Shown here one piece after another: positions 11,606 through 16,712 of a stretch of DNA of 64,000 nucleotides (its first letter is position 1; each line of letters begins with the position of its first letter). The translations under genes and the position numbers were made by a program. Source of the stretch: Candidatus Enterococcus myersii (GTDB taxonomy: Bacteria > Bacillota > Bacilli > Lactobacillales > Enterococcaceae); contig NZ_JAFLVT010000017.1 of assembly GCF_017316025.1 (NCBI RefSeq), positions 1 through 64,000 on the forward strand, given 5' to 3'. Below the pieces are notes generated by a model. That model was not told the origin of the DNA and did no database searches. It saw nothing but the letters and a program-made list of their open reading frames with translations.

Positions 11606-11669
11606 GCAGATGTAAAGCGGTATCATTAATAATGTGAAAATAAGCACAATTTAAAAAAGGAGGGAGTTA

Positions 11670-12521
11670 ATGCAGATTGAAAAATTTATTGCGGCACGAA
11701 AAAAAGCTGGCTTCTCACAAATCGAATTGGCGCAAGGCATATGTACACAAGCAACTTTAAGTCGTTTTGAAAACAATGGCCAAGTGCCAAGTTTGAAAAT
11801 TCTCATAAAGCTCTGTGAACGGCTAGACTTTCCAATTGGAGCGTTATTTCCCAAAATCGGTGTGAAACATACAACGCTTGTTGCCACCTTTGATGAAATC
11901 GAATTTTTATTGATTACAATGGAATATCAAAAGGCACAAAATTTGCTAGCCAATATTTTAACAAGTGAGCTGGATACTCCTGAGTTGAAGATGCGCTACC
12001 ATTATTTGTCAGGTTTTCTTTTGTACTATCAAAAAGCAGCAGCCGTCGAGGTTTTATTTGCTTTTAATCAGTTGCTATTGGAAGAAGATACGCTCTATCA
12101 GCTATTGGCTTATACGGGCATGGGACTAGTTTACAGTGAGGCTGGTGAAAAAGTAAAAGGGGAAGTCTATTTTGATAAAGTGTTGCGTAAGATTTATGAC
12201 TATCCAGTTAAATCCATAGAAGAAACCTGGCGCGTGTTGCATATTTTATACCAGTGTGGTGTTTTTTACAGTGAAATTGCAGAGTATCAAGTTAGCAATA
12301 CGTTATTGGAATATGCGCTTTCCATTTGTTCAGATAATCACGTCACCTTCTATTTGGCAAGAGTGGCTACACAGTTAGCCTGCAATGCCATGAAACTTAA
12401 AATGCCCCAAGGCGAGATTTTAGAACGGCTTGCAGACGCTAATGCGTATGCCAAAATTAATCGCAACGAAATTGCACAAAAAACGATTGCCCAGCTAACA
12501 CAAGCAGTCAAAAAAAGTTAA
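11670..12521 (+). CDS. Rgg/PlcR-like XRE-family transcriptional regulator
   Basis: A 283-residue protein with an N-terminal XRE helix-turn-helix (residues about 5-60: KKAGFSQIELA, CTQATLSRFENN). A long all-helical C-terminal part of TPR character follows. This layout is that of Rgg/MutR and PlcR-type regulators, some of which respond to small peptides. No peptide gene is visible next to it. It precedes apbE by about 30 bases on the same strand, so it is probably the regulator of the flavinylation operon. The RBS AGGAGGGAG is very strong. Confidence 0.8.
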   Translation: MQIEKFIAARKKAGFSQIELAQGICTQATLSRFENNGQVPSLKILIKLCERLDFPIGALFPKIGVKHTTLVATFDEIEFLLITMEYQKAQNLLANILTSELDTPELKMRYHYLSGFLLYYQKAAAVEVLFAFNQLLLEEDTLYQLLAYTGMGLVYSEAGEKVKGEVYFDKVLRKIYDYPVKSIEETWRVLHILYQCGVFYSEIAEYQVSNTLLEYALSICSDNHVTFYLARVATQLACNAMKLKMPQGEILERLADANAYAKINRNEIAQKTIAQLTQAVKKS

Positions 12522-12550
12522 GTTGGTCAAAAAATGAAGAGGTGAATACT

Positions 12551-13465
12551 TTGGCAACAAGACAGCTTTATATGATGGGTACAGTCATTGATCTTCTTGT
12601 TGATCACCAAGAAGCAGAAAAAATTTTGGATGAGTTGGAAAAACGATTAAAGCTTTATGAAAAGCGGTTTAGCGCCAATGATCCTACTTCTGAACTAATG
12701 GTCCTAAATCACAATGCCGGCATAAAAAAAGTTGTCCTTCAGCCAGAATTATATGAATTAATCAAGTTAGGAAAAGAAAATAGTCTTACAAGTGAGCAGC
12801 TAAATATTGCCATTGGCCCTTTAATTCAAACGTGGCGCATCGGTTTTAGTGATGCTAAAGTACCTTCAGATGAAGTGATTAAAGGCTTATTAGCTAAAAC
12901 TAACCCCCATAATATTCAATTAGATGATCAAAATCAGACTGCTTTTTTAACAGAAAAAGGCATGCTGTTAGATCTAGGGGCATTAGCTAAAGGTTTTATT
13001 GCTGATTTATTGGTGGCTTATTTAAAAGAAGAAAATGTCACAGGCGCATTAATTAATTTAGGTGGCAACGTGGTCGTTTTTGGCACAGCAAGACAACATG
13101 AAGATGGACTATGGCGCATTGGTGTGCAAGACCCTAGCAAAGATAGGAATCAAACGCGTCTGATTTTAAAGGTAACCAATCAATCCGTAGTTACTTCGGG
13201 AATTTATGAGCGTAGTCTAATCAAGGAAAATAAAAGATATCACCATATTATTGATCCAAAGACTGGCTATCCTGTCAAAACGGAGGTTCTTAGTTTAACC
13301 ATTGTATCAAAAAAATCAGTAGACGGTGAGATTTGGACTACCCACTTATTTGGACTACCAACTGCTGAAATCATACGTACTTTAAACCGTACTTCAGGTA
13401 TTGAAGGAATTATCATCACAACAGATGAGGTCATCTTATCTGATGGAATTAGAGATTTAATGTAG
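12551..13465 (+). CDS. apbE: Cytosolic FAD:protein FMN transferase (ApbE family)
   Basis: About 305 residues. TTG 12551, spaced seven bases from GAAGAGGTG, is a better start than the in-frame GTG 12542, which touches the RBS. ApbE signatures are MMGTVIDL near the N-terminus, LAKGFIAD, INLGGNVVVFG, VTSGIYER and HIIDPKTGYPV; the last holds metal and FAD-binding residues. ApbE links FMN from FAD by a phosphoester to Ser/Thr in a short target motif. There is no signal peptide or lipobox, so it should act in the cytosol, unlike exported FmnB/Ftp enzymes. The likely target is encoded two genes downstream. Confidence 0.9.
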   Translation: MATRQLYMMGTVIDLLVDHQEAEKILDELEKRLKLYEKRFSANDPTSELMVLNHNAGIKKVVLQPELYELIKLGKENSLTSEQLNIAIGPLIQTWRIGFSDAKVPSDEVIKGLLAKTNPHNIQLDDQNQTAFLTEKGMLLDLGALAKGFIADLLVAYLKEENVTGALINLGGNVVVFGTARQHEDGLWRIGVQDPSKDRNQTRLILKVTNQSVVTSGIYERSLIKENKRYHHIIDPKTGYPVKTEVLSLTIVSKKSVDGEIWTTHLFGLPTAEIIRTLNRTSGIEGIIITTDEVILSDGIRDLM

Positions 13466-13481
13466 AGAAAGGATTTTTCAA

Positions 13482-14090
13482 ATGTATAAATTTATCGGAC
13501 TTGTGGGTACCAATTCAAAGGAATCAACAAATCGTGCATTGTTGGCCTACATGCAAAAAAAATTTGCGGCTGAAGCAGAAATTGAATTAGTAGAAATTAA
13601 TAATCTTCCTCTTTTTAATAAACCGGCAGACAAAAAAATACCAGAAAGTGTGCAGGCTATTGCTGAAAAGATCAACAAAAGCGATGGCGTAATCATTAGC
13701 ACACCTGAATATGATCATGCAGTACCAGCAGCGTTAATGAATGCTTTAAGCTGGTTATCTTACGGTATTTATCCTTTTGTTGATAAGCCTGTTATGATTA
13801 CGGGTGCTTCTTATGGGACGTTAGGTTCTTCTAGAGCGCAAGCCCATTTACGTCAAATTTTGGATGCACCAGAATTAAAAGCGCGAATTATGCCTAGTTC
13901 AGAATTTTTATTGAGCCATTCTTTAGCGGCTTTTGATGAAGCGGGCAATCTAAATGATGAAAAACAACAAGAAAAACTCGCAGGCCTATTTCAGGATTTC
14001 ACTGTTTTTGTCACGATTACCAAACAATTGCAAAACAGTCACGCAGTAAATCAACAAGCAGCTGAAAATTTTTCTTGGGATAACATCTAA
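13482..14090 (+). CDS. NADPH-dependent FMN reductase-family flavoprotein
   Basis: A 202-residue flavodoxin-fold protein of the NADPH_FMN_red family. [13 protein letters not shown] is the phosphate-binding loop. [19 protein letters not shown] and [20 protein letters not shown] are the other family motifs. It would reduce a flavin, quinone or similar acceptor with NAD(P)H in the cytosol. It is a paralogue of the N-terminal domain of the next gene but has no PAS domain or flavinylation tag. It starts 16 bases after apbE with RBS GAAAGGA, so it is co-transcribed. Confidence 0.88.
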
Positions 14091-14140
14091 AGCAGGGTTA
14101 TTTTAGTTTAACTATTTACAAGCATAAAGGAGTCTTTGCT

Positions 14141-15400
14141 ATGAAAATCGTCGGTATTGTCGGATCAAATGCAGATCTTTCTTATAACCGTCTTTTGTTA
14201 AAATTTATTGGTAAAAAATTTGGTCATTTATTTGACTTTGAGTTGTTGGAAATCACCGATGTTCCCTTATTTAATCAAAGCCAGGATGCAACAAATAGTC
14301 CAGCTATTCAAAAATTAAATCACAAAATTAAAATGGCAGATGGTGTAATTATCGCAACTCCAGAACACAACCATACTATTCCGGCTGCTTTAAAAAGTGT
14401 GCTTGAATGGTTATCTTTTAAAATTCATCCCCTTGAAAATAAACCGGTTATGATCGTGGGAGCTTCTTATTATGACCAAGGTTCTTCCCGGGCACAACTC
14501 CATTTACGTCAAATATTAGATGCGCCTGGTGTTAATGCGATTGTTATGCCAGGAAATGAATTCTTATTGGGAAAAGTAAAAAATGCTTTTGATGAAAATG
14601 ATAATTTGAAAGATCAAGGAACAATTGATTTTCTTGGGAGCACATTGGAAAAATTTATTCAATTTGTCAATGTCACGGCTTTATTAAATCCTAAGCCCAA
14701 AGCAGAACCAGAAGATTTATATGCAACTGGTAAAATTGACACAACAATTGAAGGTGCCGATATGTGGGCAGATGACTGGTTGGAACAAGCGACAGCAATC
14801 GTTGAACCTGCAGTAGGTCGTGATTATGTTAAATTAGACCGGGGACTTTTAACCGTGGATCAATTGAATTATTTCTTAGATTCGATGCCGATGGAATTAA
14901 CCTATGCCGATAGCAACAATCAATTTTTATATTATAACCAAACAAAGCCCGCTAATGAGATGTTAGCGCCGCGCGTGCCAGGCCAAGTGGGAAATCCATT
15001 GGCAAAATGTCATCCAGAAAAAGCTTATCAGAATGTCGAATGGGTAATTCAACAATTGCGCTCAGGTGCCACCGATGTCGTTCGCGTACACGTTCCAAAA
15101 CAAATGCCTGAAAAATATATTGTTCATAATTATCAAGCTATGCATGATAAACAAGGCAATTATATGGGAATTAATGAATATATTTTAGACTTTAAGCCAA
15201 TTGTCGAATGGTACTTGCAACAAACGGGGCAAAAATTAGTTGGCGATGTCGACGGCGTAACTAGTGCTTCTAAAAAAAAAGAAACACCTGCAGTTGACGG
15301 CGTCTCCAGTGCTTCTAAAAAAGACGCAGCGTCTGCAGTAAGTGCTGTAACACCAACACCTGCAGTTGATGGTATCTCTAGCGCTTCTAAAAAGGATTAG
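14141..15400 (+). CDS. FMN reductase-PAS fusion with three C-terminal flavinylation-like tags
   Basis: A 419-residue three-part protein. Residues 1-190 are an NADPH_FMN_red flavodoxin fold ([32 protein letters not shown]). Residues about 230-350 resemble the PAS_10 domain of DUF438 proteins, with [12 protein letters not shown] and a conserved KCHPEKA. The tail carries DGVTSAS (371-377), DGVSSAS (386-392) and DGISSAS (410-416), each followed by Lys-Lys and separated by Ala/Pro linkers. These resemble the D-G-x-S/T-G/S-A-S/T sequence modified by ApbE. I infer a cytosolic redox protein with up to three covalent FMN groups that move electrons from NAD(P)H to an unknown acceptor. It is last in the operon. 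Confidence 0.88.
15284..15397 (+). repeat. Direct 42-bp repeat encoding the second and third flavinylation tags
   Basis: 15284-15325 and 15356-15397 are 42-base units beginning ACACCTGCAGTTGA and ending with the Ser-Lys-Lys-Asp codons. They differ at only a few, mostly silent, positions. A diverged first unit lies at 15239-15280. This suggests recent tandem duplication of the tag-encoding segment. Confidence 0.85.
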
Positions 15401-15418
15401 TAAAAACAAACGATACTA

Positions 15419-15466
15419 AAAAACACTAAAGACTAGATTCGCAATCTGGTTTTTAGTGTTTTTTTG
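15419..15466 (+). terminator. Terminator of the flavinylation operon
   Basis: ACACTAAA pairs with TTTAGTGT, with an inner AGATT/AATCT stem, and is followed by a seven-T run. Confidence 0.88.
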
Positions 15467-15608
15467 TAGGTTAAAACAAATGATTTTTTTCAAGGTTACC
15501 ATTATTACAGTAGTTTTTTTATATATTGTGATAAAATTAATTTATTGAAATGTTAGCGGTTAATTTTGGTTATGGTTATTGGCTTCAAAAGATATAAGGG
15601 GGGATTGA

Positions 15609-16712
15609 ATGTTGAAAAAGTGGTTGACACATTATCGAAAATTTAATCAACAACAAAAGAAGTTATTATGGTTTTGGTTATTGGGGCTATCAATAGTTTT
15701 TATTGGCTATATTGGCTATACGACGTTTTATTTATATAGCGATAAACAGTCAGAAAACAAATACTGGACCCAGTATTTACATGAAAAAGAACAATTAACA
15801 ACATCGCAGCAAAAACAAGCAAAAGATGCGATTTCAGTCAGTACGGGTGTCTATGTTGAGAACATTAATGAAATTAGTATTCGTAATTCCAATTTCAATG
15901 TCACATTTCAGGTCTGGTTTAAATGGGATGATCACCATGATTTGAATATGTTGGACCATTACGAAATATATAATGGCCAAATTAAGTCACAAGAAATTTT
16001 AAAAGAAAGTCGCGTTGGAAAAACGAATTATCAATTGGCACGTGTAAATGCTGTCGTCACGAAAACTTTTTGGACGACGCGATTTCCCTTAGGCTCTTAT
16101 CAAATTCGCTTTTATTTAGAACCTAAAAGTCCAATTGAAAATATCGTATTACAGGCGGATCGTAAAAATTCATCGATTAATGAGAATATTAATATTTCTG
16201 GGTTTTCGGTCAAACGTTTTGACACCAATCTTTTTGTGCAAGAGTATCAAAATAATAAAGCTGACCCAGAGGCAAATGGAAATTACACAGTCACTGAATT
16301 TTTAACGGCAATTGAATTAAACCGTGAAAATATTGGGTTATATATCAAATGTTTTATTGCTCTGGTGGGGACTTTAGGTTGGGTCTTAATTGTTTTATTC
16401 ATTTGTACGTACCATAATGTAGATCCATTGGGGATGATTCCAAGTGCATTATTTGGTACTGTAAGTAATATTTTAGTTGGAGCAAATTTGGTTCCCGATG
16501 CACTACACACGGGCTTATTGGAATTTGTTAATATTTTTGGCATCATTGTTATTTTGTTTTCGTCCTTTGCTGTCATCACCATTAATCGACAGCGTTCTTA
16601 CTATCACGATGATGATTTTGCTGCTTTTTTTGGCCGCCATATTTTTTGGATGGTCGCCATATTTACGGTGGCGGGAAATATCTTGTTACCAATGGCAGCT
16701 TATAATTTTTAA
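15609..16712 (+). CDS. Prokaryotic pentameric ligand-gated ion channel-like membrane protein
   Basis: A 367-residue protein. Residues 19-43 form an N-terminal hydrophobic segment, then comes a beta-rich extracellular domain (about 75-235) and four C-terminal helices (about 242-266, 273-292, 302-325, 343-363). By eye it follows the bacterial channel GLIC. VSTGVYVENI...WFKWDD corresponds to the VNTGIYL...LSWKD region, with conserved Trp106-Asp107. RFPLGSYQIRFYL matches RYPFDSQTLHIYL, and ENIVLQAD matches RNIVLAVD. In M2, SNILVGANL matches FNILVETNL. The N-terminal signal-anchor is an extra feature. Ligand and ion are unknown. It is monocistronic with RBS AAGGGGGG. An unrelated membrane sensor remains possible. 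Confidence 0.72.
   Translation: MLKKWLTHYRKFNQQQKKLLWFWLLGLSIVFIGYIGYTTFYLYSDKQSENKYWTQYLHEKEQLTTSQQKQAKDAISVSTGVYVENINEISIRNSNFNVTFQVWFKWDDHHDLNMLDHYEIYNGQIKSQEILKESRVGKTNYQLARVNAVVTKTFWTTRFPLGSYQIRFYLEPKSPIENIVLQADRKNSSINENINISGFSVKRFDTNLFVQEYQNNKADPEANGNYTVTEFLTAIELNRENIGLYIKCFIALVGTLGWVLIVLFICTYHNVDPLGMIPSALFGTVSNILVGANLVPDALHTGLLEFVNIFGIIVILFSSFAVITINRQRSYYHDDDFAAFFGRHIFWMVAIFTVAGNILLPMAAYNF

Follow-up and report, generated by a model that had tools for sequence, protein, structure and literature searches.

The 64,000-nucleotide (nt) window that we analysed (Candidatus Enterococcus myersii, contig NZ_JAFLVT010000017.1, positions 1 to 64,000) contains an operon of four + strand genes (positions 11670-15400). 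The operon probably encodes a soluble cytosolic oxidoreductase of reduced nicotinamide adenine dinucleotide (phosphate), NAD(P)H, with covalent flavin carriers, in which electrons would be relayed by tethered flavin mononucleotide (FMN). In order, the genes encode a helix-turn-helix (HTH) regulator, an ApbE-family protein, an FMN_red protein of 202 amino acids (aa) and a 419-aa protein that combines FMN_red and PAS_10 domains with three C-terminal flavinylation tags; the intergenic gaps are 20, 16 and 50 nt, measured from the ends of the open reading frames. These reading frames were found where an initial annotation, made from the sequence alone, had placed them, and so were the three tags (Table 1). 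Flavinylation of the tags, shown by others for Lactococcus relatives, is very probable for the window protein as well.

Table 1. Positions in the window of the operon genes, their domains and tags, and flanking signals
Feature	Position	Strand	Basis
Rex- or CRP/FNR-like candidate operator ATGTGAAAATAAGCACAA, 38-21 nt before first gene	11632..11649	+	3 mismatches to TTGTGAAN4TTCACAA
HTH_3 transcriptional regulator, 283 aa	11670..12521	+	PF01381, 44 bits
ApbE, flavin adenine dinucleotide (FAD):protein FMN transferase, no signal peptide	12551..13465 (listed reading frame from GTG 12542)	+	PF02424, 252.5 bits vs cut-off 25.6
Stand-alone FMN_red partner, 202 aa, untagged	13482..14090	+	PF03358, 118.5 bits
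FMN_red-PAS_10-three-tag protein, 419 aa	14141..15400	+	PF03358, 124 bits; PF13596, 102 bits
FMN_red (flavodoxin-like) domain, aa 1-145	14141..14575	+	Pfam; fold matches 1rtt, ArsH, FerB, ChrR
PAS_10 domain, aa 242-351	14864..15193	+	Pfam; fold and sequence match 2qkp, 3cax
Flavinylation tag 1, DGVTSAS, aa 371-377, predicted acceptor Ser377	15251..15271	+	Translation and bases
Flavinylation tag 2, DGVSSAS, aa 386-392, predicted acceptor Ser392	15296..15316	+	Translation and bases
Flavinylation tag 3, DGISSAS, aa 410-416, predicted acceptor Ser416, three residues before C-terminus	15368..15388	+	Translation and bases
Hairpin and T run, likely operon terminator	15414..15468	+	-26.6 kcal/mol, z = -9.1; unlisted by simple terminator scan

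To assign folds in the tagged protein, and for this only, we used an AlphaFold2 (AF2) model together with Foldseek. The tail (aa 366-419) was modelled at low confidence, with a predicted local distance difference test score (pLDDT) below 50. The solved structure 2qkp that PAS_10 matched is Streptococcus mutans SMU_1151c, and the closest solved relative of the 202-aa partner is YieF (3svl). No ligand of PAS_10 emerged from AF2 and Foldseek or from a limited search of the open-licence PubMed Central (PMC) literature on PAS_10/DUF438; the domain was also found by Pfam in a DUF438-hemerythrin-PAS_10 protein (locus L035). Pfam detected neither FMN_bind nor FAD_binding_2 in the tagged protein, and a fumarate-reductase-type function was rejected on this ground. 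The protein also falls outside the class of extracytosolic multi-FMN_bind proteins, as it has the flavodoxin fold from its N-terminus and no FMN_bind domain.

To assess the conservation of the tags, we scanned 295 genomes of the window's order, inferred to be Lactobacillales. A match at E <= 1e-20 was obtained in 158, and at least 119 encode a full-length homologue among the matches listed (to about E 5e-68). Tags were counted in a different set, of equal number by chance: 119 loci, without dereplication, comprising 111 of the order-scan homologues (the window included, eight left out) and eight from a scan of Streptococcaceae. A strict tag was defined as D-x-x-[ST]-[GS]-A-[ST], and in six of these 119 homologues, which lack the anchor pattern, the final 75 residues served as the tail. 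Strict tags number one or more in 117 of the 119 and two or more in 113; most chains carry two to four, and the maximum is seven. The tails contain 298 strict tags compared with a mean of 1.6 and a maximum of 7 in 1000 within-tail shuffles, while no strict tag occurs in the 42,544 residues outside them. The linkers between tags vary widely among homologues. Named loci, the best 80 of 395 found, include 79 with a full-length frame (L232 was left out) from Enterococcaceae, Carnobacteriaceae, Bacillaceae and others; 78 of these have at least one strict tag and 73 at least two. Among 398 genomes of the class, 35 gave matches at E <= 1e-60, of which 29 were full-length and 28 of those belonged to the window's order. 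In tails from inferred Streptococcus (e.g. L091:6080-6245) the linkers are often Gly/His-rich (GGHGDGGHGD), as if metal-binding.

As the initial annotation had proposed, the ApbE lacks a signal peptide and its gene adjoins the FMN_red genes, which was borne out by Pfam, by inspection of the start site and by the absence of a lipobox from the first 45 aa of all 91 operon ApbEs examined. The signal peptide is absent with either start codon; TTG 12551 is the likelier start since GTG 12542 overlaps the likely ribosome-binding site. The cytosolic placement of the system is likewise supported by the tagged protein, which starts directly in the flavodoxin fold. The best solved relative of the operon ApbE is an FAD:protein FMN transferase (7esa, E 5.9e-59), and the match aligns the HHI-D-P-TG-P and DGxxxT regions, which we take to be the active site. 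FMN transfer activity is predicted from family membership. The window's genome (2.97 Mb) encodes one further ApbE, which does have a lipobox and a lipoprotein signal; a 318-aa frame that gave two FMN_bind matches is about 0.7 kb away (G000:C27:19889-22107), probably an extracellular electron transfer locus. The host would therefore possess two flavinylation systems, an extracellular and an intracellular one.

Gene linkage supports the proposed oxidoreductase system. In all 119 loci the tagged gene is immediately preceded by the 202-aa partner gene, which is also present in all 79 named loci. We found apbE in 93 of the 119 (in 87 immediately upstream, in 1 farther upstream, in 3 downstream and in 2 on the opposite strand) and in 70 of the 79. 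FMN_red-PAS_10-tag loci next to apbE thus recur, and homologues that lack both the tags and an adjacent apbE are not the rule. Oceanobacillus and several further Bacillaceae have apbE last, after partner and tagged gene in that order, and their tags include DAVSGAT and DTVSGAT. ApbE is encoded in all 119 genomes listed with a full-length homologue as compared to 144 of the 176 others, a contrast that is uncorrected for kinship and in which the 176 may include weaker full-length homologues, beyond about E 5e-68.

It could be speculated that the tags are a low-complexity tail that carries no flavin and that ApbE serves another protein, and the 26 of 119 loci with no apbE within the fetched stretch would fit this explanation. 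Of these 26, 23 had their genomes scanned (the other three came from the family scan), and all 23 genomes encode apbE elsewhere. To look for other clients, we chose, within genus g14 (Streptococcaceae; inferred Streptococcus), 32 genomes with the tagged protein and exactly one apbE. FMN_bind had no match in 27 of them, and NqrB/RnfD had none above the cut-off in any of the 32, with sub-threshold matches in three; 27 of the 32 therefore have neither type of client, the search having covered these two substrate families and not DUF2271 or Flavodoxin_4. Given this result, the excess of tags over shuffled tails and the flavinylation of relatives described in passages of PMC11334425, a flavin-free tail is highly unlikely.

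The FMN_red module is shared by several architectures. The first, at L109:5001-7142, is a 713-aa protein in which FMN_red is followed by a tag, PAS_10, three tags, a second PAS_10, two strict tags and one degenerate tag, and a Cys-rich stretch (HTCTCDSCGSG, with a CxC motif); by our reading its C-terminal end may be PAS-like. The second occurs in six Lactococcus-like split loci (L164-L169), where FMN_red-tag proteins without fused PAS carry 2, 1, 4, 2, 1 and 0 tags, apbE adjoins the tagged gene, the 202-aa partner was not found, and a separate 162-aa PAS_10 gene is present in three (L164, L166, L167; by Pfam on two). Their genus, g81, appears to be Lactococcus because L171 is nearly identical, by eye, to the protein of L. 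lactis plasmid pGdh442. For that plasmid form (WP_011915228.1, 403 aa, two tags) the alignment extends across the PAS region, and a Crp/Fnr family regulator gene (L268:2384-3055) lies upstream of the plasmid's apbE-FMN_red-tagged operon.

In a further arrangement FMN_red heads FMN_bind proteins. Pfam identified a 288-aa FMN_red-FMN_bind protein and an 808-aa FMN_red-FMN_bind-FAD_binding_2 protein in L104, the latter (L104:5001-7427) with an FMN_red partner and apbE nearby, and an 804-aa FMN_red-FMN_bind-FAD_binding_2 protein in L181. Frames of about 810 aa were checked in these two loci only, and the FMN_red domains of the two long proteins are 63-65% identical to that of the window protein. 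The FMN_red-FMN_bind-FAD_binding_2 protein is likely a chain from NADH to covalent FMN to acceptor, which counts in favour of the relay proposed here.

From these data we infer the oligomer, the electron path, the acceptor and the regulation of the window system as follows. The dedicated cytosolic ApbE, with FAD as donor, would attach FMN to the final Ser of every tail tag. The partner and the N-terminal FMN_red domain of the tagged protein, both of YieF/ChrR type, would assemble into a hetero-oligomer and oxidise NAD(P)H; from the FMN of FMN_red the electrons would hop to the tethered FMNs, which would swing between the FMN_red site and a cytosolic acceptor at or near PAS_10. Quinones, ferric iron or similar compounds are our guess for the acceptor, by analogy with the YieF/ChrR/FerB relatives. 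A more specific proposal, which we put forward tentatively and with somewhat less than even confidence, is a “swinging arm” enzyme with several flavins that works entirely in the cytosol: FMN_red chains reduced by NADH would hand electrons to covalent FMNs along a disordered arm, which would serve PAS_10 as a docking or acceptor site. The arm-PAS unit could be repeated, as in L109, and in most of the inferred streptococci sampled no ApbE client other than the tagged protein was found.

On the other hand, the tag FMNs may not relay electrons at all but dock in the FMN_red sites of their own chain and the partner, thereby fixing a dissociable cofactor for times of low flavin, with spare tags raising the filling of the sites. 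Residues surrounding the flavin site are conserved in the two FMN_red chains, and we assume that they bind FMN. The partner-less split loci have the zero to four tags listed above, as compared to at least two in 113 of 119 homologues with the partner, which is also in keeping with anchoring. Models in passages of PMC11334425 favour it too, as they place tags beside the FMN_red flavin site itself, where no relay is needed. However, the tags follow about 120 residues of PAS, chains with up to seven strict tags exceed the need of two sites, and so do the tags that flank two PAS_10 domains in L109. Both the abundance of tags and the repetition of the tag-PAS unit therefore favour the relay, and we consider anchoring unlikely, although it deserves serious consideration.

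The proposed use of the relay comes from the promoter. The Rex operator consensus in Table 1 is that given in passages of PMC8376106. Within the window alone the candidate operator is no better than chance (4 matches at three or fewer mismatches as compared to 9.8 expected), and it was retained since comparative promoter tests exceeded their controls. Among 100 dereplicated operons, 39 have an operator-like site with three or fewer mismatches and 13 with two or fewer; 150 shuffled half-sites gave means of 2.6 and 0.24 and maxima of 22 and 2, respectively. In a separate comparison, not dereplicated, sites were present in 47 of 117 upstream regions as compared to 64 of 2677 control windows. NADH disposal is the likely use of the system, given that some of the promoters carry this Rex/CRP-like operator. 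The promoter data do not distinguish Rex from CRP/FNR sites, and binding to the operator is a prediction.

Several observations weigh against the proposed relay and its regulation, in addition to the published models described above. Two of the 119 homologues have degenerate tags only (e.g. H-A-V-S-G-A-S), one of the 79 named loci has no strict tag, and the 26 loci without a local apbE count here as well. Besides regulator, apbE and partner, no neighbouring gene that might hint at the electron acceptor occurs in more than 8 of 80 loci. The AF2 model of the tagged protein is weak (mean pLDDT 62.5) and uninformative on FMN or partner. With regard to regulation, ATGTGAT, a control half-site that overlaps that of Rex, had matches in 22 of 100 promoters, and the operator may for this reason be of CRP/FNR rather than Rex type; the Crp/Fnr gene upstream of the L. 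lactis plasmid copy is in keeping with that alternative. Finally, the words FMN and flavin are absent from the main text of two Rex regulon papers (S. agalactiae and S. mutans).

A regulator homologue is present in 43 of the 79 named full-length loci and in 35 of the 119 fetched loci. The initial annotation had called this regulator Rgg-like, a label that the domain searches did not bear out: Pfam saw only HTH domains, NCBIfam gave HTH matches below cut-off, and no Rgg-type C-terminal domain matched. The HTH gene and the PAS domain raise the possibility of flavin-linked signalling, in which the tagged flavins would inform the regulator of the NADH level and PAS_10 would act as sensor of a ligand or of redox state. 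This is very unlikely, as 36 of 79 named and 84 of 119 fetched loci yielded no regulator, tags are kept without it, and Pfam found no output domain.

The initial annotation knew of no description of this architecture. This holds for the FMN_red-PAS_10-tag fusion, which we did not find described in the open-licence PMC literature, but the claim is only partly right because passages of Huang, Meheust, Barquera and Light (2024; PMC11334425) describe FMN_red proteins with C-terminal flavinylation tags beside apbE, and report flavinylation of two Lactococcus members from in-gel evidence and alanine mutants. The window protein, with PF03358, a tagged C-terminal extension and a co-localised apbE, shares the defining features of that class, including its occurrence in Firmicutes. 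It differs in the PAS_10 domain between FMN_red and tail and in the constant second FMN_red gene, and its family has more tags per chain, mostly two to four and at most seven. The members described in those passages have one or two motifs with no mention of PAS, a word absent from the main text; one, WP_021723379.1, is known from its description only and could be of the short or the PAS form. Our additions would thus be the PAS_10 fusion with its repeat form, the paired FMN_red gene, the cytosolic ApbE and the Rex/CRP-like operator, together with the 27 of 32 genomes that have no other tested ApbE client.

Other systems resemble the window operon in part. The Lactococcus-like split loci share the adjoining apbE and a tagged FMN_red (at least one tag in five of six, by the pattern used), and differ in having PAS_10 as a gene of its own in three of six and no partner found. 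The quinone/chromate reductases YieF/ChrR and FerB (3svl, 3u7r) are like both FMN_red chains in fold and sequence, but have neither tags nor PAS, unlike the tagged protein. They carry non-covalent FMN and are not known to bind it covalently. Cytosolic NADH:fumarate-type reductases have in common a cytosolic ApbE, an FMN_red input module and covalent FMN, but hold this FMN in an FMN_bind domain with fused FAD_binding_2, both of which the window protein lacks. The cytosolic ApbE that serves a Klebsiella fumarate reductase is reviewed in passages of PMC12052999.

ApbE flavinylation has mostly been discussed as extracytosolic. The system described here appears to be cytosolic, is widespread in lactic acid bacteria and is conserved in no fewer than 119 of the 295 order genomes sampled. 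If the proposal is correct, streptococcal and enterococcal apbE genes would gain a client, and their role in NADH balance could be put to the test; the natural multi-flavin tail could serve as a covalent flavin carrier. In S. agalactiae, passages of PMC6224512 list SaSA53_0930 to 0932, annotated as apbE and two FMN reductases and marked CYT, with a joint change in the transcriptome table (-2.09, -2.11 and -2.12), and SaSA53_0932 at 3.55 in the proteome table; to judge from this annotation, the three genes would be the same operon type. A table passage of PMC4241727, which compares Lactobacillus transcripts of the mouse forestomach with the hindgut, includes PAS_10 among its Pfam domains with the number 360; this entry may or may not stem from the tagged protein.

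Directly 3' of the operon, positions 15609-16712 encode a 367-aa protein with hydrophobic stretches and no Pfam match at E <= 1e-5. A PHROGs search gave no match for the tagged protein or ApbE. Of 72,556 plasmid records, 110 gave matches to the tagged protein at E <= 1e-60: 95 are from Enterococcus, 8 from Lactococcus, 5 from Lacticaseibacillus and one each from Limosilactobacillus and Loigolactobacillus. On the one plasmid inspected, E. faecium pUAMSEF1 (NZ_CP076472.1, L269:160-6959), the four-gene operon is flanked by IS1216-family transposase genes.

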